Source: Caldithrix abyssi DSM 13497 (GTDB lineage Bacteria; Calditrichota; Calditrichia; Calditrichales; Calditrichaceae). From it: a stretch of 64,000 bases of DNA. The position numbers and the translations under genes are program-made. Where the stretch lies: the NCBI RefSeq assembly GCF_001886815.1, contig NZ_CP018099.1, positions 3,036,501 through 3,100,500 on the forward strand, given 5' to 3'. The notes beneath the pieces were generated by a model. That model did not search any database. It was not told where the DNA came from and was given only the letters and a program-made list of their open reading frames with translations. Below, one piece after another: positions 4,660 through 25,675 of the stretch (positions are counted from its first letter, which is position 1; every line of letters begins with the position of its first letter).

Positions 4660-6138
4660 ATGATCAATCTCTCTCAAAACATTAAACTGAGTATGGAACA
4701 ACGGCTGACGCCGCAGCAGATTCTGCTTTCTACTTTACTGCAGTTACCGTTATTAAGCCTGGAACAACGCATTAAAAGCGAACTGGAAGTGAATCCCGTA
4801 CTGGAAGAAGGCGAAGAACAGGACGAAAATCCGGATGAAGAAGATATGATCGAAGAGCCAGATGATGATGAGATAGAAGAGATTTCCAAAGAACTGGAGC
4901 TTCTGGATCAACCTAAAAATAATGATGAATACGATAAAAAAGAATTAGAAGAAGCCCAGGCCGATGCGGATCTTGAAAATTATTTAAACGACGACGAATC
5001 GTTTGAAATTCGCATCCCCAGGGACAAAAACGAAGAAGAGTTTGAACGGCCCGAAATCCATCGTCCATCGCTTCCCGAGCACCTGATGGAACAACTTCAT
5101 ATGTTAGACCTTGACAATCGGCAACTGGCCATCGGCGAATATCTCATCTGGAACATTCGCGATGACGGCTATCTCGACGCCAGTTTAAATCTTGAAACCG
5201 TGGCCAATATGTTCGAGACCGATGTGCAAACGGTTGAAAAAATCTTAAAGAAAATTCAGTTCCTGGATCCTACCGGCGTGGGAAGCCGGGACCTTCGCGA
5301 ATGCCTGATGGTGCAATTGGAAGAACAGGGCAAGCAAGATACCATTGCCTACAAAATTTTAAAAGATCATTTTGACGATTTTAAAAACAAGCACTATGAA
5401 AAAATAATGGAAGCTTTGCATATCGATAAAGAAGAGCTGCAAAAGAATATTGATATTATCGTCAAACTGAATCCCAAGCCAGGCGAAGGCGAGTTTGATG
5501 CGCGCAGTAACTATATTGTGCCGGATTTTATTGTAGAAAAAATTGATGATAAACTGGTGGTTACGCTCAATGACTGGAACATCCCTCCCCTGCGCATCAG
5601 CAATCTTTACAAAAAGATGCTCATGGATCGCAAAAAATACGACAAGGAGACGCGCAAATACATCCGTAAAAAAGTAGAATCGGCCCGCTGGTTCATTACT
5701 TCTATCTGGCAGCGCAAAATCACCATGCTTAAGGTAATGGAAGCCATTGTGGAAAAACAACGCGAGTTTTTCGAAAAAGGGCCGGAATACATCAAGCCGC
5801 TGACCATGCGCGAAATCGCCGAAATGATCGATATGGACATCTCCACCGTCAGTCGTGTGGCCAACGGCAAATACGTGCAAACCGATTACGGTGTTTTTGA
5901 GCTGAAATACTTTTTTAATGAAAAGATTGAGACCGAAGACGGCGAAGAAATTTCCACGCGCCGTATTAAACAACGCATTCAGGAAATTATCGACGCCGAA
6001 GACAAACACAAACCGTTAAGCGATGAAAAAATCGCCGAAATATTGAAAAAAGAAGGGTTTCCCATTGCGCGTCGGACGGTCGCCAAATATCGGGAGCAAT
6101 TGCAAATACCGGTCGCCCGGTTGCGCAAAGAACTTTAA
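4660..6138 (+). CDS. rpoN: RNA polymerase sigma-54 factor
   Basis: 492 residues with the full sigma-54 architecture. Region I is Gln/Leu-rich (LSMEQRLTPQQILLSTLLQL). It is followed by an acidic linker at about 45-120, the core-binding region, the HTH (MREIAEMIDMDISTVSRVAN) and the C-terminal RpoN box ARRTVAKYREQ at 470-480, which recognises the -24 element. It directs transcription from -24/-12 promoters and needs AAA+ activators; one such activator is encoded at 24266-25675. Candidate target promoters in this window are upstream of the nap operon and of the DUF2202 gene. The start has a GGGAAGT box. The overlap of function with nearby genes is inference; the family assignment is firm. Confidence 0.97.
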   Translation: MINLSQNIKLSMEQRLTPQQILLSTLLQLPLLSLEQRIKSELEVNPVLEEGEEQDENPDEEDMIEEPDDDEIEEISKELELLDQPKNNDEYDKKELEEAQADADLENYLNDDESFEIRIPRDKNEEEFERPEIHRPSLPEHLMEQLHMLDLDNRQLAIGEYLIWNIRDDGYLDASLNLETVANMFETDVQTVEKILKKIQFLDPTGVGSRDLRECLMVQLEEQGKQDTIAYKILKDHFDDFKNKHYEKIMEALHIDKEELQKNIDIIVKLNPKPGEGEFDARSNYIVPDFIVEKIDDKLVVTLNDWNIPPLRISNLYKKMLMDRKKYDKETRKYIRKKVESARWFITSIWQRKITMLKVMEAIVEKQREFFEKGPEYIKPLTMREIAEMIDMDISTVSRVANGKYVQTDYGVFELKYFFNEKIETEDGEEISTRRIKQRIQEIIDAEDKHKPLSDEKIAEILKKEGFPIARRTVAKYREQLQIPVARLRKEL

Positions 6139-10180: not shown

Positions 10181-10196
10181 TGGCACAATAATTGTT
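10181..10196 (+). promoter_or_regulatory. Candidate sigma-54 promoter of the DUF2202 gene
   Basis: TGGCAC (10181-10186), 5 bp, then TTGTT (10192-10196) matches the -24/-12 consensus TGGCAC-N5-TTGC except for T in place of C at -12. The predicted transcript starts near 10207, leaving a leader of about 30 nt that contains the strong AAAGGAGGT box. Confidence 0.55.
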
Positions 10197-10237: not shown

Positions 10238-10918
10238 ATGAAGCGAACCATTATCACCAGAGTATTAGGTCTGGTTTTCATTTTAAGCTTAACTTTTACA
10301 CTGGTACAATGCAGCGACGATTCTAACACCGTGCTCTCTTCAACTGCGCGCTCAGGAGCGTTAACGGAAGATGTTATTAATTCATTTCCTTTAGAAGAGG
10401 TATCGCCGGCAGAGGCAGAAGGTTTGACTTTTATGCGGGAAGAGGAAAAATTAGCACGCGATGTCTATCTGACTCTCTATGGACAATGGGGCATACTGGT
10501 CTTCAACAATATTTCAGGCTCTGAACAAATGCATTTCGACGCCATGGGTTATTTGCTACAAAAATACAATATTGATGACCCTGTAGTTGTCGATTCTATC
10601 GGCGTATTTACAAACGCAGACTTGCAAAATCTGTATAACACGCTCATTGTTCAGGGCAAAGACTCAGCAGCTGCTGCTTTAAAAGTAGGCGCGTTAATTG
10701 AAGAGGTGGACATCAGAGATCTTCAAAAAGAATTGGATGAAAATGTCGATAACGAAGATATTCAATACGTTTACGAAACTTTAATGCGTGGTTCGCGCAA
10801 TCATTTACGCGCTTTTGTAAGTTATCTTTCTGCGATGGGCGTTATCTATGAACCACAAATCCTGTCTCAGGAAGAATATGAGGCCATCATTAACAGTCCG
10901 ATAGAGCGCGGCTTTTGA
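10238..10918 (+). CDS. DUF2202 ferritin-like lipoprotein
   Basis: 226 residues. The N-terminus MKRTIITRVLGLVFILSLTF with LVQC at 22-25 looks like a lipoprotein signal, though Gln before the Cys is unusual. The rest matches the DUF2202 family: LTFMREEEKLARDVYLTLY, SEQMHFDAMGYLLQKY and MRGSRNHLRAFVSYL. The spaced Glu/His residues suggest a ferritin-like four-helix bundle that could bind metal. The function is not established. A consensus ribosome-binding site precedes the ATG. A sigma-54-like promoter lies upstream and a terminator follows, so it is probably transcribed alone. Confidence 0.85.
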   Translation: MKRTIITRVLGLVFILSLTFTLVQCSDDSNTVLSSTARSGALTEDVINSFPLEEVSPAEAEGLTFMREEEKLARDVYLTLYGQWGILVFNNISGSEQMHFDAMGYLLQKYNIDDPVVVDSIGVFTNADLQNLYNTLIVQGKDSAAAALKVGALIEEVDIRDLQKELDENVDNEDIQYVYETLMRGSRNHLRAFVSYLSAMGVIYEPQILSQEEYEAIINSPIERGF

Positions 10919-12469: not shown

Positions 12470-14086
12470 TTATCGGTTTTCAAAAAAGGATTTTCCGGGC
12501 AGGACAAGATCGATAACCTGCTCTTTCATCTTCTTCAGATCGTAATCGTTACGTTCTTTGTAAAAATTGAACGTAGAATCAACTGCCGGCGTATTTGCGA
12601 ACTTGGTACCCAGATAGTATTCTTTGTTTTTATAACGCTCTAACCATATCTGCCACTGTTCATCCGACAATAAGCCCTGCTGGTAAGCGGCTTCTACATT
12701 TTTGTACACACGATCCCAATAATCGGGATACTGATTGTAAACAAAGGGCGTTGTGTTTGATCTGGCATTTATACCCCATGCCTGGCCCGGAATATCATAC
12801 AGCGGATAGGTAATAAATTTGGCCGGGCTTTTAGATTTGGCGATCTTTTTAGCTTCAGGATCGCCGTGTTCGGCAGCCCATTTAATTAATTCAATCAACT
12901 TTTCCTGCACTTCCCAGATACCATGCCACTGCGTATAGTCCGCGCCCATCATCAAAGCGCCCATGCGGAAGCGACGGCCTTCGTGATGCCAGCCGTAATA
13001 CATTAAATATTCGGGTTCTTCATCCCAGCCATTTAACACCGGATCGGAATAAAATTTTCCATCCACTTCCAGACGGCTGATTTTACCTTCTTTGGTTAAC
13101 TTTTTAGTCCAGTACACAAATTGACGACGGATTTCATTGTACTGTAAATTAACCAGATCTGCGGTTAACAGGTACACTTTGTAAAAATCCGGCGAATGGC
13201 AACTGGCGCAGATCGCTTCCATACGTTCGCGTTTTTTCTGCCAGTTCCCCAGGTTTTCTTCATCCCATACCGTGCGGTAGCTCCAGGACATTTGCGATTC
13301 CCATGCCAGGCGTTCGCTTACATTATGCGTCATGGGTTGAGTTTCGTTGCCGTCCATGTGGCAGGTTGTACAAACCGGGGTTTCCAGTGGAATACGTTCG
13401 TTATTTTTACTGGAATAGTTCAAATCCATATGAGCTGACTTGGCTTTAAAAATATTGCCGTGTTTGGATTCCAGATAGATTTCGATTTGCGGGTGATCGG
13501 GACCCATGTGACATTCGCCGCAGGTTTCGGGTTGACGGGCAACCGCCTTGCTGTAAGAATGCTTGGCATGACAAACGTCGCACTCGCCAACGCTGCCATC
13601 GGGCCACAAATTGCCGATGTTATGGCATTGCTCGCACCCATGCCTGGTAGAAATCGGATTTTCAAAAACAGATCGATCGGCATTCTTAAGAATCCAGAAC
13701 TGATGGGCGTGCTTACTGTTGGCAAACTCTTCCACCTGTTGTTCATGGCATTTGGCGCAGTCTTTAGGTGTGGGATGTCTGCCCACTAAAATGCTGCTGC
13801 CCGTACAGGTAAAGGCGTCAAAATCATCTTTTTGCGCTTCGTGGCATTCATAGCAGCCCGTTCCGGAGACCGCGTGCATACTCTCCTTCCAGGCGTCAAT
13901 CTGATTTACAGCAATTCCTTTTTCTTCGTGACAGGTAATACATTTCGCCGACATTTCATCAATCTCTATTACAGGCTCAAAAGTACGGCTTTTTTTCATC
14001 TCCACGCCGGCAACAATTAACAGAGCAATAATTAATAAAACACTGAAAATTCCTATCAGCCATTGTTGGGCTTTAACAGTATCCAT
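12470..14086 (-). CDS. Membrane-anchored octahaem cytochrome c, HAO family
   Basis: 538 residues. A single uncleaved-looking helix (9-28) anchors a periplasmic domain with eight CXXCH motifs at Cys 49, 78, 110, 151, 169, 189, 239 and 293. This layout and the long haem-free C-terminal half (about 300-538) fit the hydroxylamine-oxidoreductase-like octahaem family. It is the last gene of the nap operon, directly after Rieske and cytochrome b genes. It most likely carries electrons from that quinol-oxidising module to periplasmic NapM/NapA, or itself reduces nitrite or hydroxylamine. Both are inference. A partial homologue lies at 1-922. No NapC or NapB is encoded nearby. Confidence 0.9.
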   Translation of the reverse strand: MDTVKAQQWLIGIFSVLLIIALLIVAGVEMKKSRTFEPVIEIDEMSAKCITCHEEKGIAVNQIDAWKESMHAVSGTGCYECHEAQKDDFDAFTCTGSSILVGRHPTPKDCAKCHEQQVEEFANSKHAHQFWILKNADRSVFENPISTRHGCEQCHNIGNLWPDGSVGECDVCHAKHSYSKAVARQPETCGECHMGPDHPQIEIYLESKHGNIFKAKSAHMDLNYSSKNNERIPLETPVCTTCHMDGNETQPMTHNVSERLAWESQMSWSYRTVWDEENLGNWQKKRERMEAICASCHSPDFYKVYLLTADLVNLQYNEIRRQFVYWTKKLTKEGKISRLEVDGKFYSDPVLNGWDEEPEYLMYYGWHHEGRRFRMGALMMGADYTQWHGIWEVQEKLIELIKWAAEHGDPEAKKIAKSKSPAKFITYPLYDIPGQAWGINARSNTTPFVYNQYPDYWDRVYKNVEAAYQQGLLSDEQWQIWLERYKNKEYYLGTKFANTPAVDSTFNFYKERNDYDLKKMKEQVIDLVLPGKSFFENR

Positions 14087-14104
14087 ACATCCTCCTAATT
14101 TTAT

Positions 14105-15151
14105 TTAAATAACAATTGTTTCCCAGATGGTTAAAATTAAAGTAATAACCAGCGTCAATACGCCGGCCGTACGGCTAAAAATGGTTCGCTTGGTTTTATC
14201 TTTAGAAATAAGCGGTTCGATAAACGGCCAGAACGTAAAGACTAAAACGAAAGCCGCCGTGGCGTAAATGCCCACATGCAATGGCACCATTTTCAAAAAT
14301 CTGTAAGTAGGGAAAAAGTACCATTCCGGTTTAATATGTTGCGGCGTAATGGCCGGATTGGCCGGTTCTCCGATTCCCGGCGGTAAAATAACCGTTAATG
14401 TGCTCATTAACGTTAAAAGAAAGAGCGTGGCAATGATGATTTTGTAAAAATGATGCGGATAAAATGGATAATATTTTTCTTCAAACCCCTCGGGAATGGA
14501 AACACCGTGCAAGCGTAAGATCACAATGTGCAGAAAAATAAAAAAGAAAATAATTCCTGGCAGGATCATTACATGCAAGGTGTAAAAACGAGTTAGGGTA
14601 TTGGCATTTACCACATCGCCACCGCGCAGAAAAAAGAGCATCATATCGCCGATCAGCGGGACTTCTTTAATCATATTAGTACCCACGGTGGTTGCCCAGT
14701 AAGAGAGCTGGTTGTAAGTTAAAGAATATCCGGTAAACGAAATGGTCATGGTTAAAAAGAACAATAGTACGCCTATGATCCAGTTCAATTCCCTTGGTTT
14801 GCGATAGGCCTGCGTAAAAAATACGCGCGTCATGTGCAACAGTAATGAAATAATCATTAAATTTGCTCCCCATCTGTGCATGCCGCGCACCCAATACCCA
14901 AAACGCACATCTTCGGTAATATGCCGGATGCTTTCATAGGCCATCTCTGGCGAAGGCATAAAATAGAAGGTTAAAAACAGGCCTGTTAGCACCTGGAACC
15001 CAAATAAAATCAACGGAGTGGCGCCCATGACAAACAGCCACTTCTTCATGTGCGTGGGAATGGGTTCTTTAATAAATATTTTTTCGTTAAACTCGACAAA
15101 CTTATCGTAGTCGATCGGGAAGCGTTCTAAAAACCATTCTTTGAATTTCAT
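14105..15151 (-). CDS. Cytochrome b of a Rieske/cytochrome b complex
   Basis: 348 residues, a single-chain cytochrome b. The haem ligands His92/His106 and His193/His208 have classical spacing. The quinol-site motif PEWYF is at 275-279. It should oxidise menaquinol together with the Rieske protein encoded just upstream. Its ATG overlaps the Rieske stop codon in an ATGA arrangement, with GGAG 8 nt before it; an upstream in-frame GTG at 15157 is less likely. The placement inside a nap operon suggests that it replaces NapC as the quinol-oxidising entry point. Confidence 0.93.
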   Translation of the reverse strand: MKFKEWFLERFPIDYDKFVEFNEKIFIKEPIPTHMKKWLFVMGATPLILFGFQVLTGLFLTFYFMPSPEMAYESIRHITEDVRFGYWVRGMHRWGANLMIISLLLHMTRVFFTQAYRKPRELNWIIGVLLFFLTMTISFTGYSLTYNQLSYWATTVGTNMIKEVPLIGDMMLFFLRGGDVVNANTLTRFYTLHVMILPGIIFFFIFLHIVILRLHGVSIPEGFEEKYYPFYPHHFYKIIIATLFLLTLMSTLTVILPPGIGEPANPAITPQHIKPEWYFFPTYRFLKMVPLHVGIYATAAFVLVFTFWPFIEPLISKDKTKRTIFSRTAGVLTLVITLILTIWETIVI

Positions 15152-15612
15152 ACCCACGGACTCCTCACTTTATCTTCCACATAAACATAAATTTTTTGGT
15201 CTTCAACAACGACCTTAAATTCATCCAGAGGTCGCGGCGGAGGGCCCCCGATAACATTCCCTAATTTGTCGAATATACCATTATGACAGGGGCAAAAAAA
15301 GCGGTTTTTATCCTGCTCCCATTTAATGATACAGCCCAGATGGGTACAAATACCAGACATGACTTTGAACTGGCCGTCATGCGGCACCACATAAACCGGA
15401 GTTTTCCCCAGACTGATTTGTTTGGGACGCCCATCCTTGAACTCCCGCTCATGAGCCACCAGGTATTTGTGGTAGGTTTTTTCCTTCTTTTCCGGGAAAA
15501 TGTAAAGAATCAGGTTTCGGAAAAACAGAGCGATGCTTGCGCCTAAAGCCGCGAAGACGCCGCTCTTAAAGAAAAATTCTCGCCGATTGATTTTTTTATC
15601 CTCTTCGGCCAT
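15148..15612 (-). CDS. Rieske 2Fe-2S protein
   Basis: 154 residues starting at the ATG at 15612, which overlaps the napH stop (TAATG) and follows AAGGAGG. Earlier in-frame starts would lie inside napH. An RRE-F-type N-terminus (NRREFFFKSG) and one hydrophobic helix (about 17-39) fit a Tat-inserted membrane anchor. The cluster ligands are in CTHLGC (89-94) and CPCHNG (107-112). It also has the GPPPRPL segment common in bc-type Rieske proteins. It partners the cytochrome b encoded next. Confidence 0.95.
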   Translation of the reverse strand: MAEEDKKINRREFFFKSGVFAALGASIALFFRNLILYIFPEKKEKTYHKYLVAHEREFKDGRPKQISLGKTPVYVVPHDGQFKVMSGICTHLGCIIKWEQDKNRFFCPCHNGIFDKLGNVIGGPPPRPLDEFKVVVEDQKIYVYVEDKVRSPWV

Positions 15613-16487
15613 TACATTTCCTCCTTCTTTATTGGTTCTTCTTTTCTTAATTGGTAGCGAGGCGTAAGGTTGGCAGTTAGATTCATGAAATTCATTTTTA
15701 ATGCCTCTCCGTAAAAATAGCATTCTTTTACACATTCGCCACAGTTAAAACAGGAAGGATAGATTTTATTGGATTTCGGATTGATATGGATTGGACAGCG
15801 CATGACACAGGGCGACTCCGTTTCGTTCATACTGCACACGCAATCCATTTCCGAATAGCTGACTATTAATCCTTTTTTGTAATGAAAACGTTGCAGCAGG
15901 GCGCCAACCGGACACAGTTCCCGGCACCAGATGCGATTGAAAACGACCACATCAAGCGCCAGCAATACGACAATAATTAACGACTCCGTGCCCACCATTT
16001 TCAAAAAGATTAAATCGCTGAAAAAAACGCCTATTTGTCCGGGCATGGAAACAAAATACAGAATGGGGAATCCGGCCAGCGCCGCCAGAATGAGCCAGCC
16101 GACCAAAATGCCCCAATAGCGTCGGGAATGCACAGGATAAACTCTGCCCTTTCCGGGGAAGATTTTTCGCAACCACTCGGCCAGTAAATTGTAGGGGCAA
16201 ATGAAACTGCAAAAAATCTTACCCGCAAAAAAGGCGATACCCACCGGAATGATGAGCCCCAATAGTAGCGTACGGTTAAGGCTCAATGTTAATAAAAAGT
16301 CCTGCAAAGCAAACAACGGATCGACAAATTCAATCTTCCAGATGCGCAGGCTGTAATAATTACCGGTGACGAATGTGATTTTCAAAACATTTAAGATCGG
16401 AATCATCACCAAAAAAGCCAATGACAAAACTTGAATCACCCGCCGTTTACGAAAAAGAAAGGACAGCACCTTCTGTTTTCCGTTCAC
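15612..16487 (-). CDS. napH: NapH-like membrane polyferredoxin
   Basis: 291 residues with about four or five helices. The two cytoplasmic CX3CP motifs of NapH are visible (CSFICPYN and CRELCPVG). Two 4Fe-4S motifs follow at the C-terminus: CSMNETESPCVMRCP, which is atypical, and CFNCGECVKECY. NapH with NapG forms a quinol dehydrogenase that feeds periplasmic nitrate reductase. The start overlaps the napG stop by 4 bp (ATGA). Confidence 0.9.
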   Translation of the reverse strand: MNGKQKVLSFLFRKRRVIQVLSLAFLVMIPILNVLKITFVTGNYYSLRIWKIEFVDPLFALQDFLLTLSLNRTLLLGLIIPVGIAFFAGKIFCSFICPYNLLAEWLRKIFPGKGRVYPVHSRRYWGILVGWLILAALAGFPILYFVSMPGQIGVFFSDLIFLKMVGTESLIIVVLLALDVVVFNRIWCRELCPVGALLQRFHYKKGLIVSYSEMDCVCSMNETESPCVMRCPIHINPKSNKIYPSCFNCGECVKECYFYGEALKMNFMNLTANLTPRYQLRKEEPIKKEEM

Positions 16488-16990
16488 TTTGACGCATTCC
16501 TTTTTATTACAACGATAGACGGTTCTTCATTGGGGCAGACGTTTTCGCAAATTCCGCATCCCACGCACTTCTCCTCCACCACCACCGGATAAATCTCATC
16601 TTTTAAAATAATGGCTTCCGTGTAAATGGGGCATCGTTCGTAACAGGCCCGACAGATAATGCCCATGTAAGGTAAACAGGTCTCCTGGTCAATTTTTGCA
16701 ATGCCCATTTGCACCTGCTCTTTTTTCAGAATGGGTTGCAGGGCATCGGTCGGGCATTCGGGCGGACATATCATACACAGATAACAGGGAATATCGCGGG
16801 GAATGATAACCGGCGTCCCTGAGTTTTTCCCAAGGCCCTTTTTAATCACTTTGATACTCTTATAGGGGCACACCTCCACACAGCGTCGGCATCGAATGCA
16901 GTGTTTTAAAAAAAGCTCTTCATCCAGCGCCCCGGGCGGTCTTAGCGGTTCCCGATAATTCGCAATTTTTTCCAGAATTTCCTTAAGCAT
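16484..16990 (-). CDS. napG: NapG-like ferredoxin with four 4Fe-4S clusters
   Basis: 168 residues with four cluster motifs: CIRCRRCVEVCP, CYLCMICPPECP, CLPYMGIICRACYERCP and CVGCGICENVCP. The sequence is homologous to NapG but lacks a Tat signal at the N-terminus (MLKEILEKIANYREPL), so it may stay cytoplasmic or be exported with a partner. It overlaps napD by 8 bp and napH by 4 bp, which indicates tight translational coupling. Confidence 0.85.
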   Translation of the reverse strand: MLKEILEKIANYREPLRPPGALDEELFLKHCIRCRRCVEVCPYKSIKVIKKGLGKNSGTPVIIPRDIPCYLCMICPPECPTDALQPILKKEQVQMGIAKIDQETCLPYMGIICRACYERCPIYTEAIILKDEIYPVVVEEKCVGCGICENVCPNEEPSIVVIKRNASK

Positions 16991-17252
16991 CTTTCTGATC
17001 TATTTCAATTTCAGACACTTCATCTTCAAAATTAACGTAAGCCGGATATATCCCTAAAATAGCCGGATCGTTATTTTGAACTTCCTCTAAATAGGCTTTT
17101 AAATTGGTTTGGGGCGTGGTTTCTATCACTGCAACAATATAATGCCCTTCATGGATGCCATAGGTGGTTATCTCAGGCAGTTGCTCCAGGCGCTGATAGA
17201 CCTTTTGCACTTCTTCTTTTTTGGTTAAAATAGCTACTCCTGCAATTGCCAA
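16983..17252 (-). CDS. napD: NapD-like chaperone of NapA
   Basis: 89 residues, the usual NapD size and ferredoxin-like fold pattern: IAGVAILTKKEEVQKVYQRL, TYGIHEGHYIVAVIE and PAILGIYPAYVNFEDE. NapD binds the Tat signal of NapA and guides its maturation. The start is a TTG: an in-frame TGA lies just upstream and AAAGGAAG precedes the TTG at the right distance. It begins 12 bp after the preceding ferredoxin gene. Confidence 0.9.
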   Translation of the reverse strand: MAIAGVAILTKKEEVQKVYQRLEQLPEITTYGIHEGHYIVAVIETTPQTNLKAYLEEVQNNDPAILGIYPAYVNFEDEVSEIEIDQKDA

Positions 17253-17264
17253 AACCGCTTCCTT

Positions 17265-17819
17265 TCATGTTTTAGGTTTAATCTCAATGGCCGGTTGTTC
17301 TGCCGGACATTGGTACTCGCAGATGCCGCAACCGGTACAAATTTCTTCGTTTACCACCGGCCGCCCGGAGGCATTAACCGAAATCGCTTCATTGGCCAGC
17401 GGGCAGGCGTTAACGCAAGCGCGGCAGAACAGGCCGCTGTAAGCCAGGCAAAGATTTTTATTGATCCGGGCCACGCCATTTAACTTTTGGGCAAACGCTC
17501 TTTGCAACGCCCCCGGTTGACAGGCAGAGATGCAGGGATAGTCCGAACACATAAAACAGGGTTGTTCAGATGGCACAATGATCGGCTTTCCGAAAAAGTC
17601 GTTTTCTGGGTCACGACACACACGCAACGCTTCATGGGGACAAACCGATACACATTCGTAACATTCTGTACAGGTCTGTAAAAACTGTTTTTCTGAAGCC
17701 ACGCCAGGCGGTAGAAGGACAAATGATCCTTTCGTATTCGCAGCCTGTGAAATTTCGCGAAATATTGCGGCGAAATTCTTCAAAAATGATTTTCTGCTTA
17801 TTCTCTCCGTCCTGGCCAT
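17265..17819 (-). CDS. Second four-cluster ferredoxin of the nap operon
   Basis: 184 residues with four 4Fe-4S motifs: CTECYECVSVCP, CFMCSDYPCISAC, CLAYSGLFCRACVNACP and CTGCGICEYQCP. It is a paralogue of the NapG-like protein at 16484-16990. The N-terminus contains SRKSFLK, close to a Tat consensus with Lys for the second Arg, but no hydrophobic stretch follows. It may be a NapF-like cytoplasmic protein or a NapG that has lost export. It is separated from napA by a 92-bp gap holding a terminator-like hairpin. Confidence 0.85.
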   Translation of the reverse strand: MARTERISRKSFLKNFAAIFREISQAANTKGSFVLLPPGVASEKQFLQTCTECYECVSVCPHEALRVCRDPENDFFGKPIIVPSEQPCFMCSDYPCISACQPGALQRAFAQKLNGVARINKNLCLAYSGLFCRACVNACPLANEAISVNASGRPVVNEEICTGCGICEYQCPAEQPAIEIKPKT

Positions 17820-17911: not shown

Positions 17912-20185
17912 TTAAGCTTTTTTAATCCGAGCAGCGCATACTTTGTATTCCGGTTCTTTTGATCCTGGATCAAAGGCGTCTATGGTTAACACATTAGCCA
18001 TCCACTCTTCCCAGTGCCAGGGGATAAAGAGCGTGCCTTTTTCCGGGCGGTTAATCACGCGCGCTTCTATTTTCAACTTTCCGCGGCGTGTTTCAACGAT
18101 TACCTGATCCTTGTTGGCAATGCCCAGCGCCTTTGCGTCTTCCGGATTGATTTCCACGTATGCTTTTGGCACCGCACGATTCAGTTCAGGAACCGTTCCG
18201 GTCATGGTGTTTGTGTGCCAGTGTTCCAGAACCCGTCCGGTAGTTAGCGCAAAGGGATATTGGTCATCGGTCGGCTCTTCAGGGCCTTTGTCAGGGCGCG
18301 CCCAGATAACCGCCTTACCTTCCGGTTTGCCGTAAAAGTAGATCCAGCGTCCTTTTTTCTTTTCTGCAGGCAATTCATCGAAAATGGGATCGCCTTTGAC
18401 GTAACGTTTGTACGTGCCCGGATGATCTTCCGAAGGAACAGGCCAGCGTAAACCGCGCACTTCTTTTAAGCGACGATAGGTAGCGCCGCTTAAATCCATA
18501 TCACGTCCTTTGGTCAGAGTTAGATATTCGTTCCAGATGTCCTCGGCTGTTTGGTATTTTTCGAATTCTTTCTTAAAGCCCATGCGTATGCCCAGATCAC
18601 GCAAAATAAAGGCGTCCCATCTGGCCTCGCCCATGGGTTCAATCACTTTGGGCATGTACTGCGATCTTCTTTCGGTACAGCCGTAAACGCCTTCTTTTTC
18701 CGCCCAGAAAGCCGCCGGCAACACCACATCGGCATATTGGGTTGTGGCCGTGGGAAAGAAGGACTCAGCCACCACCACAAACTGCTCTTTTAACCCTTTC
18801 CAGTATTTACTGGCATTGGGCAGCGATTGGGCCGGATTGGTACACATGATGTAAATACCTTTAATTTTGCCCTCGTTCAAGGCGGTGAACATGGCAATGG
18901 TGTGCTTACCCGGTTTTGGTTGAATATTCTTAACCGGAACGCCCCACACTTTGGCCACTTCTTCGCGATGTTTCGCATTGGCTACTTTGCGATGGCCAGG
19001 TAACAAATGGCACAAACCGCCGCCTTCGCGCACGCCGCCACAGGCGTTGGGCTGGCCGGTTAAAGAAAACGTATCGCTACCTGGCTTACCAATCTTTCCG
19101 GTGAGCAGATGTAGGTTAGTAATCAAATTATTGGCCCATACGCCGCGCGTACGCTGGTTAATTCCCATGGTCCACATGCTCATGGCCGTTTTAGCCTGCC
19201 CGAACAGGCGAGCCGCTTTTACAATGTCTTCCGCTGGCACACCGCTTATTTTAGAGGCATATTCTGGCGTATATTTTTCCAGGAATTGTTTGTACTGCTC
19301 AAAGGTCATGTTCTTTTTGTCATTACCTTTAATGACTACATTATCTTTAATGAATTGTTCGTCTGCATAACCTTCTTTGATGATAATTCTGGCCATGGCA
19401 TGCAAAATGGCGAGATCCCAGCCCGGCTTGGGGAAAAGATGAAGGTCTGCCACCTGATCGGTAGGCGTTGTTCTGGGATCGATAATCACGATTTTTACAT
19501 TGGGATTTTTCGCTTTGTGACGCACAATCCGCTCAAAAAGTATGGGATGGGCCTCTGCCGTATTGGAGCCGATCAGCAAAAACAACTCTGCTTTCTCAAT
19601 ATCATCATAGGTGCCGGAAGGTTCATCCAGGCCCAACGATGTTAAATATCCTCCGACGGCGCTGGCCATACACAGGCGCGGGTTACCTTCCATATTATTG
19701 GTTCCTATGCAGCCTTTAAATAGCTTATTGGCCATGTAGGTCTCTTCGGTTTCTGCCTGACCGGAACCGTAAAAGGCCAGGGCATCCGGGCCGTGTTGCT
19801 TGCGTATTTCATTGAATTTTTTGGCCACATAATCCAGCGCTTCGTCCCAGCTAACTTTTTCGAATTTGCCGTTCTTTTTGATCATGGGATGGGTAAGACG
19901 GGTTTTGGAGTAAATAACTTTATGCAGATAAAACCCTTTTATGCAAAGGTGCCCTTTGTTAATGGTGTTGAATTTGTCGCCTCTAACGGCCACCACTTTA
20001 CCATTTTTTACGCCCACCATAACGCCGCATCCAACGCCACAAAAACGACACACCGATTTATGCCATTGCATGCCGCTATCCGCAAATAGCGGTTTAATAC
20101 CGCCGGGTAAAAGGGCTGTACCAATACTGGCGGCAGCAGCTGCCGCAGCGCTGGTTTTTATAAATTCTCTTCGGGTTACGCCCAT
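17912..20185 (-). CDS. napA: Periplasmic nitrate reductase catalytic subunit
   Basis: 757 residues from the ATG at 20185, which follows GGAGG. The GTG at 20209 and ATG at 20197 are less likely because the second overlaps that box. A Tat signal (TRREFIK at 4-10, then an Ala-rich stretch) directs export. The 4Fe-4S ligands are Cys46, 49, 53 and 81, with Lys83 placed for electron transfer to the molybdopterin. Cys172 (NPRLCMASAVGGY) is the likely Mo ligand. It reduces nitrate to nitrite in the periplasm with a bis-MGD cofactor. The size and motifs resemble monomeric NapA of the Desulfovibrio type. NapB is absent; the tetrahaem protein upstream is the probable donor. Confidence 0.95.
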   Translation of the reverse strand: MGVTRREFIKTSAAAAAAASIGTALLPGGIKPLFADSGMQWHKSVCRFCGVGCGVMVGVKNGKVVAVRGDKFNTINKGHLCIKGFYLHKVIYSKTRLTHPMIKKNGKFEKVSWDEALDYVAKKFNEIRKQHGPDALAFYGSGQAETEETYMANKLFKGCIGTNNMEGNPRLCMASAVGGYLTSLGLDEPSGTYDDIEKAELFLLIGSNTAEAHPILFERIVRHKAKNPNVKIVIIDPRTTPTDQVADLHLFPKPGWDLAILHAMARIIIKEGYADEQFIKDNVVIKGNDKKNMTFEQYKQFLEKYTPEYASKISGVPAEDIVKAARLFGQAKTAMSMWTMGINQRTRGVWANNLITNLHLLTGKIGKPGSDTFSLTGQPNACGGVREGGGLCHLLPGHRKVANAKHREEVAKVWGVPVKNIQPKPGKHTIAMFTALNEGKIKGIYIMCTNPAQSLPNASKYWKGLKEQFVVVAESFFPTATTQYADVVLPAAFWAEKEGVYGCTERRSQYMPKVIEPMGEARWDAFILRDLGIRMGFKKEFEKYQTAEDIWNEYLTLTKGRDMDLSGATYRRLKEVRGLRWPVPSEDHPGTYKRYVKGDPIFDELPAEKKKGRWIYFYGKPEGKAVIWARPDKGPEEPTDDQYPFALTTGRVLEHWHTNTMTGTVPELNRAVPKAYVEINPEDAKALGIANKDQVIVETRRGKLKIEARVINRPEKGTLFIPWHWEEWMANVLTIDAFDPGSKEPEYKVCAARIKKA

Positions 20186-20212
20186 TTTTTCCTCCATTGT
20201 TGTAATCACTGA

Positions 20213-20587
20213 CTATTGATGAAATTTTAAAGTATGTCCCTGATGGCAGGTAAAGCATTGTAAATTGCCGCCTTTAGAGGCGTCAACCGGACTGCCCGTG
20301 TGGCAGCTTAAGCAGCCCTCCGTATCCGGTTTGGCTTTAAACTCCACCTGGCCATCGCCATGACACATATAACAACCAAAATTCATCATCCCATGTTTTG
20401 AGCTCTTCCATTCGGCAACAATCTCAGGCGTTACTTCCTCATGGCACTCCGTACAGGAAATCGAATAATCCAACTCCGGATGTTTTTGCCCCTGGGCCTT
20501 GCCATCGCCCGCCTGGATTTGCCAGGCTGACAGCACAAAGACTCCCAGCGCCAAAGCCAAAAGTATTTTACCTAACTTATTGTTCAT
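20213..20587 (-). CDS. Tetrahaem cytochrome c, NapM-like
   Basis: About 124 residues with a Sec signal (LGKILLALALGVFVLSAWQIQA) and four CXXCH motifs: CTECH, CYMCH, CLSCH and CFTCH. It is immediately upstream of napA. Desulfovibrio-type nap operons carry a small tetrahaem NapM at this place, so NapM is the most likely identity and direct electron donation to NapA the most likely role. The second of two adjacent ATGs is preferred from the GGGGAG spacing. Confidence 0.85.
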   Translation of the reverse strand: MNNKLGKILLALALGVFVLSAWQIQAGDGKAQGQKHPELDYSISCTECHEEVTPEIVAEWKSSKHGMMNFGCYMCHGDGQVEFKAKPDTEGCLSCHTGSPVDASKGGNLQCFTCHQGHTLKFHQ

Positions 20588-20617
20588 CATTCACTCCCCT
20601 TTTTGTTAGTGGAAAAG

Positions 20618-20640: not shown

Positions 20641-22104
20641 TTAAAATTTGTAAGTAATGGTCGATTTGAGTTCCCAAACAGGATCCGTAAAATCATCGTT
20701 GCCGTTGATCAAATAGCCGGCGGCCGTTCCTGGTATAAAATAACCACCGCGAATGGTAAAATCCAGTTCATCGTAAATTTTGTAACTGCAGCGGAAATCT
20801 ACTTCCTGCCCAAGATCATTGGCCGATTTGTTCTGATCGATAATCCAGTCCCCATTGTCGTCGCCCCTCCATGCATGAACCGGCTGGGTGGAGCGGATAT
20901 AGCTGTAAGAAACAAAGGTGGTCAGTTTTTTCACGGGTTTATAAGTGGCGTTAACCTGAACAATAGTGGTATTCTCCAGCTCACGATAGGCGCGTACATT
21001 GGGCGCGCCCAGTCCCTGAGGCGTAATGCCTTCTTCATCGGGCATAATGGAATCTTCCCAGATTTCGGTAATGTAGAAGAAACCGGACGTGCGCAGTTTG
21101 TTAACATTGCCCTTACCGCCGCTTAAATCATCGTCGCCAGAACCCATTCCTACAACACCGCCCAGAGATAATTTGTCGGTGGTGGCGTGGGTCATCTTCA
21201 AATAAAGGTTGTAACCGCTCAAATCGCCGTTATTTTTATCCCACATTTGTTTGGCGCCGTAAATGTCGTTTTTGATGTCGTCTTTACCCATTAAATAATC
21301 CGCCTCAAAATCCGCGGTAACTTTACCTTTTTTGATGGTTCCGGAAATACCAACAGCGGTCAATTGCGTAATTTGCGGTGAAAAACGTGTTTTGAAAAAT
21401 TGCAGATGATCGGGCACGTAGGCGTTCATATCCGAAACACTGGCATCATTGTAATACAAACCGTACACATTATAATTAATACATTTAAACTCATTGTTCA
21501 AGTTTAATGTAAAAAGATGAGCGTCGCGGCCATCCGTGAAACCGCGTGAATCCTGAGCCAACACCTCTTTATCGCTAATTCCGTCAACGCCTTCCGATAC
21601 TTTAGCCCAGCTTAAGGTAAGTTTTTTGCCTACCACATTTTTTACATCCAGCTGAACGCCGTCGTAGTTATTGTCAACCATGAGCTTATTACCCAAACCA
21701 TACCACATGCGCCCGACACGAAAAGTTAGTGGCTTTTGCGGTAAATCGAACTCAATGTAAGCCTGATCAACATGGAAGAGAAAATTGGTATCTTTAAAAT
21801 CGAACAAGGCACTTCCCCCGGCCGTACCTGTTCTTTGTACACTGCGTAAAGCATTGTCAACGCCCCACCAGCCCTGGGCCATATCAAAACGCGTAATAAG
21901 ACGTAAATTATCGTTTACGGCAGCCTGTACTTTAAACCGAAGCATTTGTACAACATAGTTATCATTGTACTTGATTTTACCGAGCAAAAAATTATGCTGA
22001 GACTGTCCCCAGGCGGTGTAAACGCCATTTACTTTAAAATCCGCTGAAAAAAGCAATCCTACCATTAAGAAGATTGTTAGAATTAAAAGTGTAAAACGTT
22101 TCAT
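20641..22104 (-). CDS. Outer-membrane beta-barrel protein leading the nap operon
   Basis: 487 residues with signal peptide MKRFTLLILTIFLMVGLLFSA and a long series of amphipathic strands ending in KSTITYKF, the usual aromatic C-terminus of outer-membrane barrels. Segments such as VDQAYIEFDLPQKPLTFRVGRMWYG resemble alginate-export-type porins. It is the first gene behind the -24/-12 promoter and so is probably induced together with NapA. A role in nitrate or nitrite passage across the outer membrane is inference. Confidence 0.75.
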   Translation of the reverse strand: MKRFTLLILTIFLMVGLLFSADFKVNGVYTAWGQSQHNFLLGKIKYNDNYVVQMLRFKVQAAVNDNLRLITRFDMAQGWWGVDNALRSVQRTGTAGGSALFDFKDTNFLFHVDQAYIEFDLPQKPLTFRVGRMWYGLGNKLMVDNNYDGVQLDVKNVVGKKLTLSWAKVSEGVDGISDKEVLAQDSRGFTDGRDAHLFTLNLNNEFKCINYNVYGLYYNDASVSDMNAYVPDHLQFFKTRFSPQITQLTAVGISGTIKKGKVTADFEADYLMGKDDIKNDIYGAKQMWDKNNGDLSGYNLYLKMTHATTDKLSLGGVVGMGSGDDDLSGGKGNVNKLRTSGFFYITEIWEDSIMPDEEGITPQGLGAPNVRAYRELENTTIVQVNATYKPVKKLTTFVSYSYIRSTQPVHAWRGDDNGDWIIDQNKSANDLGQEVDFRCSYKIYDELDFTIRGGYFIPGTAAGYLINGNDDFTDPVWELKSTITYKF

Positions 22105-22164: not shown

Positions 22165-22180
22165 GACAAATTACGTGCCA
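22165..22180 (-). promoter_or_regulatory. Sigma-54 -24/-12 promoter of the nap operon
   Basis: Read on the minus strand, TGGCACGTAATTTGTC matches TGGCACG-N4-TTGC with a single T for C at -12. Spacing between the GG and the -12 element is exact. The predicted start near 22154 gives a leader of about 50 nt with GGAGG before the porin ATG. The NtrC-type activator gene lies next door. Confidence 0.7.
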
Positions 22181-22265
22181 AAATTATCAAGCGTCTTCGT
22201 TTCATTGTTTTTTTTAAAGTTAATAATGATATTCCGTGTTCTTTGAGTAAAAACATCCGACAGCC

Positions 22266-22291
22266 TACGGTCATCTGACGGTATACGGTCA
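22266..22291. promoter_or_regulatory. Candidate activator-binding repeats (UAS)
   Basis: ACGGT occurs three times (22267, 22278 and 22285). TACGGTCA occurs exactly twice, 18 bp apart. The segment 22266-22283 is an imperfect dyad (TACGGTCA-TC-TGACGGTA). It sits about 110 bp upstream of the predicted nap transcription start, a usual enhancer distance for an NtrC-family activator. Confidence 0.5.
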
Positions 22292-22355
22292 CTGTGCGGA
22301 AAAATATTTGAATTATTTAAAAAATAAACTCAAATTATTTATGGAGGAAAAACAC

Positions 22356-24251
22356 ATGAACCTGACACGCAAAATCATTTTAATTATCGGTTTAACTACA
22401 ACTCTGTTTTTATCTGTTATTTTTAGCGTGTTAACTCTTCGTTATAATAAGCAAATAGAGAACACTCTTTTAAACAACGCCCGGACGCTCTACCGAATGG
22501 TCGTCGCCGTTCGAAGCTGGGCGTCCGAATATGAAGGTGTGCTGGTCAAAAAAAAGGAAAATACGCAGATTAATCCCTTTTTAGCCCATCCGATATTATT
22601 AACGCAAAACGGAGATACACTTGTTTTAAAAAATCCAGCGTTAATTACCCGCGAATTGAGCGAAATGAGCAAACATTTTCTGGGCGACGCTTCCTTTCAC
22701 ATGTCCAGTAAAAAATACATTAATCCGGCGAATAAACCGGATGATTTTGAATTAAACGCCCTTAACTTTTTAGAAACCCAAAAAGAGCAAAAAGAATTTT
22801 TTACGTTTGAAACAAAAAACAACAAACTCTATTTCCGTTACTTTGCTCCCCTTTACACTAAAAAGTCGTGTCTGAGCTGCCATTCAGAGCAGGGCTACCA
22901 TGAAGGCGACCTGCGCGGAGGGATCAGTATTCTGCTCTCTGCCGATTATTACCAGAAGGCGCGAGCGGATAATTTAAAGTTTATGATCTTTTCATCCTTT
23001 ATTTCCATCATTATTCTGTCCGTTATTCTCTATTTAGGATTGCGTAAGACGATTATCCGCCCCATCGAAGGGTTAACGGAGGCTGCAGAACGCATAGAAA
23101 CCCAGGATTACCAGTTCACCCTACAGCCCTTTTCGCACGGAAGTCTGGAAATTCAAAAGCTTTTTAAAACTTTCGAGCGTATGCGCCAGTCCATCTCCTC
23201 CTATTTAACGGATTTGCAGCTTTCAGAAAAAAAATATCGCTCGCTCATCGAAAATTCTCTGGAAGCAATCGCCATCGGCAACCAACACGGCGAAATCATC
23301 GAAACCAATAAGCGCTTTCATCAATTGTTCAATAACAGTAAGGTCAGTTTTAAAGGATTGCGTATTTCAGACCTGATTGATAAAAAGTCTATTAAGCCGT
23401 TGACCGACACCTCTGATTTACCCAGAGACACAAAACATTACGAAGCCAATATCATTTTAGATAAGGATAACCGAATTCCGGTAGAAGTTTTTGAGATCAG
23501 CAACATCAAACTAACCCAGGAAAAAACCATCAGCTTTTTTTACCTGAGAGATTTGCGCCTGCGAAAAAAACTGGAAACCTACAGCTTGCAGATGGAAAAA
23601 ATGCTGGTATTAGGCGAATTGTCGGCCGGGATTGCCCACGAGCTACGCAACCCGCTTTTTGCCATTTCCAATAATCTTGATTATTTACGCGATCGGCTAT
23701 CAGATCACAAAGATTTTACAGAAATTTATCCTGAACTGCTGGAAAGTCTGAATAAAATTCATAAAATCGTTTCGGCCATTCTGGATTATGCCACTCCCCA
23801 TCTTCCGGAACTCAAGCGTATCGATCTGATTCAGGTTATCGATCAGTGCCTTATTCTGGTGCGCAAGAAATTTGAAAAAGCGCATATTAAAATAAAACAG
23901 GAGTTCGTTGGCGATTGTTTTACAGTGAAAGCCGACCCGCATCAGATCGAACAGGTTTTCGTTAATCTAATCATGAATGCATTTAAAGCGATGGACGAAC
24001 ATGGCGAATTAACCATCCGCGGCGTGTGTAAAAACGGTCGTACCGAGATTGCCATTATAGACAACGGTTGCGGTATTCCGCCCCAGGATATGGACCGCAT
24101 ATTCGATCCGTTCTACACGCAATTTGATTCCGGCACCGGCCTGGGGCTTTCGATTGTTCAAAAAATATTGACGCAACACAAGATCAAATATAAAGTGAAT
24201 AGTAAAGTTGGAAAAGGAACAAGCTTTATCTTATATTTTAAAAGAGCATAA
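22356..24251 (+). CDS. Sensor histidine kinase with periplasmic c-haem (DUF3365/Tll0287-like) domain
   Basis: 631 residues from the ATG at 22356, chosen because GGAGG lies 8 nt upstream; the frame itself is open from 22308. TM1 spans about 7-28. The periplasmic domain (about 30-205) carries FRYFAPLYTKKSCLSCHSEQ, whose CLSCH at 172-176 is a c-type haem motif typical of DUF3365 sensors. TM2 spans 209-229, then come HAMP (about 231-283) and PAS (about 294-400). The H-box has His428 (IAHELRNPL) and the ATPase has DNGCGIPP and GTGLGLSIV. It probably senses redox state or NO-type ligands and phosphorylates the response regulator encoded 14 bp downstream. Confidence 0.92.
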   Translation: MNLTRKIILIIGLTTTLFLSVIFSVLTLRYNKQIENTLLNNARTLYRMVVAVRSWASEYEGVLVKKKENTQINPFLAHPILLTQNGDTLVLKNPALITRELSEMSKHFLGDASFHMSSKKYINPANKPDDFELNALNFLETQKEQKEFFTFETKNNKLYFRYFAPLYTKKSCLSCHSEQGYHEGDLRGGISILLSADYYQKARADNLKFMIFSSFISIIILSVILYLGLRKTIIRPIEGLTEAAERIETQDYQFTLQPFSHGSLEIQKLFKTFERMRQSISSYLTDLQLSEKKYRSLIENSLEAIAIGNQHGEIIETNKRFHQLFNNSKVSFKGLRISDLIDKKSIKPLTDTSDLPRDTKHYEANIILDKDNRIPVEVFEISNIKLTQEKTISFFYLRDLRLRKKLETYSLQMEKMLVLGELSAGIAHELRNPLFAISNNLDYLRDRLSDHKDFTEIYPELLESLNKIHKIVSAILDYATPHLPELKRIDLIQVIDQCLILVRKKFEKAHIKIKQEFVGDCFTVKADPHQIEQVFVNLIMNAFKAMDEHGELTIRGVCKNGRTEIAIIDNGCGIPPQDMDRIFDPFYTQFDSGTGLGLSIVQKILTQHKIKYKVNSKVGKGTSFILYFKRA

Positions 24252-24265
24252 CTTCGGAGAAATCA

Positions 24266-25675
24266 ATGAAATTTCAGATACACATTGTGGATGACGAGCA
24301 TACGGTAGCGCAATCTTTAAAAAGAATTTTAACCACCTCTGAACGCGAAATAGAGGTTTCAAACTCCGGTTACGAAGCGCTAAAAAAAACGGAAACAAAA
24401 TCCTTTGACTTATTCATCCTTGATTACCGGCTGGGCGATATGGATGGCATTCAATTACTGGAACATTTGAAAAATACGAGCGCCGACGCCATCTATATTT
24501 TTATTACTGCCTTTGGCAATGTGGAAACGGCCGTGCGAGCCATGAAGGCCGGCGCGTTTGATTTCATCCAGAAGGACCAGAATCCGGAGGTTATTCGCTT
24601 TACCGTTCAAAGAGCGCTGGATACCATCCGTTTGCGCAAAGAGGTGGAGCTTTTGAAAAACTCTATCTTTCAGGAAAGAGGCCCCAGAAAAATGGTGGCA
24701 GAATCGCCGGTAATGAAAGAAATCTTGCAAATAGCCGAAAAGTACGCCCAGACCGATTGCACCATATTGATTACCGGAGAGACCGGAACCGGTAAAAATG
24801 TGCTGGCGGAGTTCATCCATTACCAGAGCAACCGCTTTAACAATCCCTTTTTAGCCATCAATTGCTGCACCATTCCGGCTAATTTAATGGAAAGTGAATT
24901 GTTTGGTTACGAAAAAGGCGCCTTTACCGGGGCGCACACCAACGGAAAAGTCGGACTGATTGAACGAGCCAATGAAGGCACCTTATTTCTGGATGAAATC
25001 GGCGAACTTACGCCCGACCTGCAGGCCAAATTGCTCTACATCATCGAGCGGCAGGAATTTTTGCGCATCGGCTCGGTGGAACCTCAAAAAGTAAATACGC
25101 GCATTATCGCGGCCACCAATGTGGACCTGGAAAAAATGATCGAAGAGAAGAATTTTCGTAGCGACCTGTATTATCGCTTAAACGTGGCCTCCATCAAACT
25201 GCCGCCCCTGCGAGAACGAAAGGAAGACATTTTACCTCTCAGCAAACTTTTTATTGAAGAATTCAACAAACGCTTTAATAAAAATGTAAAACAAATCGCC
25301 GATGACGCGGCAGACTACCTGATCAACGCCCCCTGGAAAGGCAATATCCGGGAACTCAAAAACTTACTGGAACGCGTCATGATTTTAACCGAAGAAGAGA
25401 CGCTAAGCTTTCGGGAACTACAAAAAGCGTTTACCCCTTTTAGCAACGACCACTCGCCGGAAAAGAACGCGTTTTTTTCCTTGCACTTAAATCCATCGAA
25501 AGGAACCAATTTGCTGCAGGAAAGCCAGAAACAGCTGGTCATCCAGGCATTAAAGAAATGCAATTGCAATCGCAGTTCGGCAGCCAGAATGCTGGGCATT
25601 CCGCGCACCACACTAAATTTTTATTTAAAGAAATTTGATCTGCAATCTGAGGAGCCGGCGTTAAAAAACAGTTAA
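24266..25675 (+). CDS. NtrC-family sigma-54-dependent response regulator
   Basis: 469 residues. The receiver domain (1-120) has Asp53 as phosphoacceptor and Lys103 (IQKDQ). The AAA+ domain has Walker A GETGTGKN (171-178), the sigma-54-contacting GAFTGA loop (218-223) and Walker B TLFLDE (239-244). A Fis-type HTH ends the protein (NRSSAARMLGIPRTTLNFYL). It is paired with the haem-type kinase and divergent from the nap operon, whose promoter is of the -24/-12 type, so it is the likely nap activator. Its last 4 bp overlap tail-to-tail with nanE. Confidence 0.95.
   Translation: MKFQIHIVDDEHTVAQSLKRILTTSEREIEVSNSGYEALKKTETKSFDLFILDYRLGDMDGIQLLEHLKNTSADAIYIFITAFGNVETAVRAMKAGAFDFIQKDQNPEVIRFTVQRALDTIRLRKEVELLKNSIFQERGPRKMVAESPVMKEILQIAEKYAQTDCTILITGETGTGKNVLAEFIHYQSNRFNNPFLAINCCTIPANLMESELFGYEKGAFTGAHTNGKVGLIERANEGTLFLDEIGELTPDLQAKLLYIIERQEFLRIGSVEPQKVNTRIIAATNVDLEKMIEEKNFRSDLYYRLNVASIKLPPLRERKEDILPLSKLFIEEFNKRFNKNVKQIADDAADYLINAPWKGNIRELKNLLERVMILTEEETLSFRELQKAFTPFSNDHSPEKNAFFSLHLNPSKGTNLLQESQKQLVIQALKKCNCNRSSAARMLGIPRTTLNFYLKKFDLQSEEPALKNS

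Follow-up and report, generated by a model that had tools for sequence, protein, structure and literature searches.

Tandem palindromes and a predicted sigma54 promoter as the probable control region of the nap operon in Caldithrix abyssi

The window, by which we mean the whole 64-kb stretch of DNA that was analysed, carries a porin-nap gene cluster on its minus strand and, divergently, a histidine kinase gene and a response regulator gene on its plus strand. The 251-bp gap between the porin and the kinase holds a -24/-12 box and two palindromes (Table 1). The order of the nap genes is that of Cabys_2564-2556 of Caldithrix abyssi, as given in the part of PMC5317091 available to us, and the operon presumably reaches through the remainder of the cluster at 12470..16990. 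For the NapA-like protein the best NCBIfam match was NapA with 723 bits, under the cut-off of 904.

Table 1. Genes and predicted regulatory elements at the locus (positions in the window)
Feature	Position	Strand	Remarks
rpoN (sigma54)	4660..6138	+	single copy found in own genome; RpoN box ARRTVAKYR intact; Ile at the Glu378 position
Cluster remainder: FeS protein, NapH-like, Rieske, cytochrome b, multihaem eHao-like	12470..16990	-	ORFs; names by gene order (PMC5317091, in part)
NapD-like chaperone	16983..17252	-	NapD E 5.5e-8
NapG-like ferredoxin	17265..17819	-	below NCBIfam cut-off
NapA-like periplasmic nitrate reductase	17912..20209	-	Tat signal, Fe4S4 and molybdopterin domains; named NapA in PMC5317091 (in part)
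NapM-like tetrahaem cytochrome c	20213..20590	-	four CxxCH; Cytochrom_c3_2; order as Cabys_2564 (PMC5317091, in part)
Outer-membrane porin, first gene of the operon	20641..22104	-	Pfam Alginate_exp E 4e-10; NCBIfam DESULF_POR1 E 4e-20, below cut-off
-24/-12 (sigma54) promoter box TGGCACGTAATTTGTC	22165..22180	-	predicted from letters; kept in 15/16 loci
Promoter-proximal palindrome, putative activator site	22258..22273		11/14 to TGACNGTATACNGTCA; centre 85 bp upstream of T(-26)
Promoter-distal palindrome, putative activator site	22276..22291		14/14; centre 103 bp upstream of T(-26)
Histidine kinase: Tll0287-like (CxxCH) sensor, HAMP, PAS, HisKA, HATPase_c	22356..24251	+	domain search
NtrC-type response regulator, putative palindrome binder	24266..25675	+	receiver, Sigma54_activat AAA+ with GAFTGA, Fis-type HTH (HTH_8)

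An earlier note on this DNA had described a minus-strand promoter with exact sigma54 spacing and one mismatch, and both points held. GG-N10-G is present in TGGCACGTAATTTGTC (T(-26) = 22180, GG = 22179-22178, G(-13) = 22167, T(-12) = 22166), and the only departure from the consensus, T in place of C at -12, is itself conserved across loci. T(-26) lies 76 bp before the porin start, and the position of the box predicts a nap transcription start (+1) at about 22154. With the window counted, 15 of 16 loci have GG at -25/-24, a 10-bp spacer and G at -13. The genome has one rpoN copy, which lies inside the 64-kb window, and a bEBP with GAFTGA is accompanied by a UAS within the 80-150 bp upstream range expected for one; C at -12 is absent, the window having T. 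Scanning the region for sigma70-type promoters gave 13 matches against a shuffle mean of 10.2 (sd 3.3) and thus no excess.

Further upstream, ACGGT was recovered three times (22267, 22278 and 22285) and TACGGTCA twice (22266 and 22284), as previously counted. This cluster resolves into two tandem 16-bp palindromes with the consensus TGACSGTATACSGTCA, whose centres lie at about -111 (22258-22273) and -129 (22276-22291), 18 bp apart. An imperfect dyad proposed at 22266-22283 is present as letters but straddles these two conserved units; it was rejected as a functional unit, since the conserved register is that of the 16-bp palindromes. Dinucleotide shuffling of the 251-bp intergenic region produced a 14/14 palindrome in 0 of 20,000 sequences, one of at least 12/14 in 3 of 20,000 and a tandem pair with a summed score of at least 23 in 0 of 20,000 (observed sum 25).

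In the 4.98-Mb own genome, which is one contig, the zero-mismatch palindrome is single, at 22276-22291, and the runners-up carry two mismatches; the regulator therefore appears dedicated to the nap operon. A larger regulon in this genome was rejected, as palindromes with up to three mismatches (85 per strand) are about as numerous as in the reversed control (69). Counts of palindromes with up to two mismatches generally followed the control in 40 genomes. One copy with a single mismatch lies within the porin coding region of the genus relative G001 (contig C102, 5786-5801). Between the palindromes and the kinase start, an ATTTGAATT ... TCAAATTA element at 22306-22337, similar in the genus relatives G001 and G003, is perhaps the promoter of the kinase-regulator genes.

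For phylogenetic footprinting, 40 genomes (own included) were searched, and regulator orthologues of at least 50% identity were obtained from 11 further genomes of the class; stretches were taken for all 11. In one of the searches, regulator matches below 300 bits and kinase matches below 100 were left out. A contig scan with the kinase sensor alignment (thresholds 250 and 90, with others for nap genes) gave 34 loci and added complete systems from KSB1 (L179), Neomarinimicrobiota (L183, L184) and an unplaced bacterium (L196), as well as a partial system from KSB1 (L188). The box and the tandem palindromes are kept at near-fixed spacing in 15 of the 16 related loci, window included. The palindrome centres lie 83-87 and 102-106 bp from T(-26) in the 15 loci, with a 70-bp range allowed in the search; the box was required to score 8/9, so that its own letters are partly given by construction, the spacing not. 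Within the window's genus (three loci) the two palindromes are 18 bp apart; in the other 12 loci the distance is 19 bp. Box and porin are separated by 62-224 bp in the 14 of these loci with the porin on the contig. As the palindrome-box spacing is near-fixed and the box-porin distance variable, the UAS holds its position relative to the box, not to the gene. Several of the loci are closely related to one another (G021/G023; window/G001/G003), and the 15 therefore do not amount to 15 independent events.

The second palindrome is weak (8-9/14) in G022, L184 and L196. L188 (4343-4584) is the one locus with neither box nor palindromes; it keeps the order of porin-napM-napA and kinase despite their absence, for which loss, rewiring or an assembly error are possible reasons. 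Because the contig of G002 (L031, L175) starts within the kinase, this genome was not used in the footprint. The contig of G026 ends before the porin, and its 265 bp, being the distance to the contig end, was excluded from the range given above; the end of this contig (L038, 1-300) repeats its own promoter stretch, probably as an assembly artefact.

We read 22165-22291 as the UAS and sigma54 promoter of the nap operon, activated by the divergently encoded Tll0287 kinase and NtrC-type regulator, and give this reading, which is drawn from sequence comparison, a probability of about 0.88. Sigma54-RNA polymerase would form a closed, transcriptionally silent complex on the -24/-12 box. The periplasmic Tll0287-like domain of the kinase would hold a covalent c-type haem, and on a signal the kinase would phosphorylate the regulator. 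The phosphorylated regulator would bind the two tandem palindromes, assemble as an AAA+ oligomer and contact the polymerase with its GAFTGA loop via DNA looping, whereupon the promoter would open. Regulation would in this circuit be sigma54-dependent and consist of activation rather than repression.

Located 65-98 bp upstream of the kinase start and between two divergent units, the palindromes could instead serve autoregulation of the plus-strand kinase-regulator genes or form a hairpin in the leader of their mRNA, with the nap promoter working independently. G008 makes this decidedly improbable, since there about 47 kb of a single contig separate the kinase-regulator pair from the porin-nap operon. 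The box and palindromes stand before the porin there, and the 19 kb around the kinase-regulator genes contain no site of at least 12/14 and two 11/14 sites more than 7 kb from the kinase start. With the kinase-regulator genes far away, the palindromes are still found beside nap, and the site therefore belongs to nap; their register with the minus-strand box also speaks against autoregulation. Of the earlier description as a compact enhancer-promoter for the neighbouring activator, the sigma54 promoter and the UAS stand, conserved in 15 of 16 loci, but the target is the porin-nap operon and not the activator's own gene. The arrangement is associated with nap and not with the regulator genes.

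That the palindromes are bound by a regulator other than the neighbouring NtrC-type protein, for example a nap repressor, is improbable. The dyads would fit the operators of any dimer, and it is sequence that is conserved; however, the dyads are found together with the regulator and nap in Calditrichota, KSB1, Neomarinimicrobiota and the unplaced bacterium, in loci that were found by regulator or sensor, and bEBPs typically use tandem sites at such distances (about -111 and -129). Doubt could also fall on the box, if a housekeeping promoter matched the pattern by chance and the regulator worked on another polymerase. Thirteen of 15 loci have T or A at -12, and TGGYAYN5TTG arises on the same strand in 56 of the 20,000 dinucleotide-shuffled versions of the intergenic region. 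Against this, in 15 loci TGG and TTG are again found at a distance of 102-106 bp from the distal dyad (the letters partly by construction, the spacing not), and TGGCAYN5TTG sites are enriched throughout the own genome (126 versus 59 in the reversed control), which renders a box of another kind highly improbable.

To return to the proposed activation by the kinase and regulator, the kinase sensor is a Tll0287 domain (PF11845, E 2e-20), which places the protein among the Tll0287/sCache_heme kinases. Its CxxCH is invariant in 12 of 12 aligned kinase orthologues, and GAFTGA is likewise invariant in 12 of 12 aligned regulator orthologues. The predicted sensor structure showed a modest match to the haem sensor GSU0935 (3b42; Foldseek E 2.8e-3). 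According to the accessible part of a preprint, c-haem is present in Tll0287 domains, and those of the signalling type form a stable complex with NO and do not bind O2; for NO binding, one Pseudomonas domain was tested (PMC12889525). By analogy, the kinase signal would most likely be NO, or a nitrogen-oxide or haem redox change, with NO, nitrite, nitrate and redox state all compatible with the recurrence beside nap genes. A Tll0287 kinase and an OmpR-type regulator adjoin nap genes in two Thermodesulfobacteria loci (L207, 7860-16228; L200, 7860-10216), the former also encoding a cytochrome c552 family protein. Consecutive genes in a MAG labelled Hydrothermarchaeum (L190, 7977-15241) encode a Tll0287 histidine kinase, a receiver protein whose HTH is ArsR-like, a multihaem cytochrome and a NapA-like protein; a binning error or transfer may lie behind this arrangement. 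The occurrence of a Tll0287 kinase beside nap with differing regulators supports a link to nitrate or nitrite respiration.

The architecture is that of a standard sigma54 enhancer-promoter; what is new, within the literature searched, is the assignment of the site to nap and a haem sensor. NorR is a one-component NO sensor, unlike the phosphorelay with a periplasmic haem sensor that is proposed here. The NorR-norVW region resembles the present one in its divergent genes, its tandem palindromic UAS before a sigma54 promoter and its link to NO, and differs in having three GT-N7-AC sites instead of two TGAC-N8-GTCA sites (PMC1274295, in part). NrfS-NrfR of Desulfovibrio (DVU0621) is a two-component system that controls nrfHA through sigma54, and sites are also predicted upstream of napM (PMC3333781, PMC5701242, both in part). 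It shares with our locus an NtrC-type regulator, sigma54, a divergent nitrogen-oxide respiration operon and a napM-type nap without napB; this likeness is one of description. Differences are that nap of D. desulfuricans is also under HcpR1, and that a Tll0287 sensor does not appear in the descriptions of NrfS in the available portions of these papers.

The sCache_heme (DUF3365/Tll0287) sensors likewise have a CxxCH sensor domain on a histidine kinase, and the target operon is what is proposed here; the words nitrate, sigma54 and response regulator do not occur in the main text of the preprint as far as it was at hand (PMC12889525). The portion of PMC5317091 at our disposal nowhere mentions sigma, RpoN, histidine kinase or two-component, and a literature search on Calditrichota sigma54 and Caldithrix nap regulation returned one unrelated paper for the former and, among the matches listed, nothing for the latter. 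With a target operon and a DNA site now proposed for the c-haem Tll0287/sCache_heme sensor kinases, recently reported to bind NO, the whole circuit from signal to promoter becomes testable in vitro.

The -12 base at the nap promoter is T in six and A in five of 11 Calditrichota loci. Outside Calditrichota, it is A in L179 of KSB1, T in L196 and C in both Neomarinimicrobiota, so that all 15 loci with a box give T 7, A 6 and C 2. Of the 126 sites in the own genome, 99 distinct ones were examined, sequence-context duplicates having been removed. The 33 noncoding ones, each followed by an ORF start no more than 250 bp downstream, have T 17, A 9, C 7 and G 0, and the 66 coding ones A 20, G 18, T 15 and C 13, the coding status being approximate because ORF calling was mechanical. 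The noncoding sites show an enrichment of T (p 0.006), an exclusion of G (p 0.0005) and no enrichment of C (p 1.0); AT-rich intergenic DNA itself favours T and A to some degree. On these promoter-like counts, T(-12) of the window was treated as a lineage variant. A Desulfuromonadaceae genome with the canonical recognition helix has C in 4 of 4 noncoding sites (30 sites examined), and a KSB1 genome has T 3, A 2 and C 1 in six (30 sites examined).

Counting both forms over 40 genomes of the phylum gave 463 TTGTA (control 136) and 184 TTGCA (control 60); the 11 comparison genomes gave 49 (control 25) and 58 (control 14), respectively. TTGCA outnumbers TTGTA overall in the KSB1 genome G043 (26 versus 12). 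A clean C-to-T switch was rejected, as TTGCA too exceeds its control in the 40 genomes. The enrichment of TTGCA alongside TTGTA implies a -12 specificity that is relaxed and not switched; this relaxed element is our most surprising result and also the least secure.

The -12 recognition helix of the window's RpoN reads MDISTVSR, compared with MHESTISR in the best-matching solved sigma54 chains, which we take to be the K. pneumoniae protein and from which the residue numbering was adopted. Ile replaces Glu378 in 20 of 20 Calditrichota sequences (the window and 19 others), in KSB1 and in the genome of L196. The two Neomarinimicrobiota have Val and Ile and six other genomes Glu; G049 yielded no RpoN match for this comparison. 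E378 and R383 are highly conserved, and Bpa at both positions crosslinks to promoter DNA (PMC5505868, in part). We see an even chance that in Calditrichota and KSB1 the -12 element recognised by sigma54 is re-coded, with C losing its preference (T > A > C, G excluded), and that this is linked to Glu378->Ile in the -12 helix-turn-helix; the association of the residue change with the base shift across these sequences is correlative and has counter-examples. As the sole cause Glu378->Ile was rejected, because both Neomarinimicrobiota (Val, Ile) keep C at the nap promoter. Loss of Thr385 (SRVT->SRV[AVCS] in Calditrichota) was rejected as the main cause, because KSB1 keeps Thr and shows the noncoding base counts given above.

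Sigma54 promoters of D. vulgaris (tGGcacg / tTGCt) share the -24 TGGCA, the spacing and G at -13 with those described here and have C at -12, where Calditrichota and KSB1 carry T or A (PMC4641369, in part). Natural variation of the -12 region is likewise known from the paralogous sigma54 proteins of Rhodobacter and Bradyrhizobium, with promoter variants at -11 or -12; our case differs in its single rpoN match in the own genome and in a phylum-wide tendency (PMC3162934, in part). It would be a natural instance in which the -12 specificity of sigma54, long held to be near-invariant, appears shifted together with one recognition-helix residue. The TGGCAC/TTGCT consensus has been used over 16 phyla, with Calditrichota unmentioned in the part of the source at hand (PMC12316311). 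Standard sigma54 promoter matrices may under-call regulons in Calditrichota and KSB1, and would miss much if the re-coding is true. A second sigma54-like box in the window, TGGCACAATAATTGTT, lies on the plus strand at 10181-10196, has T at -12 and is located 57 bp before a 226-aa ORF starting at 10238.
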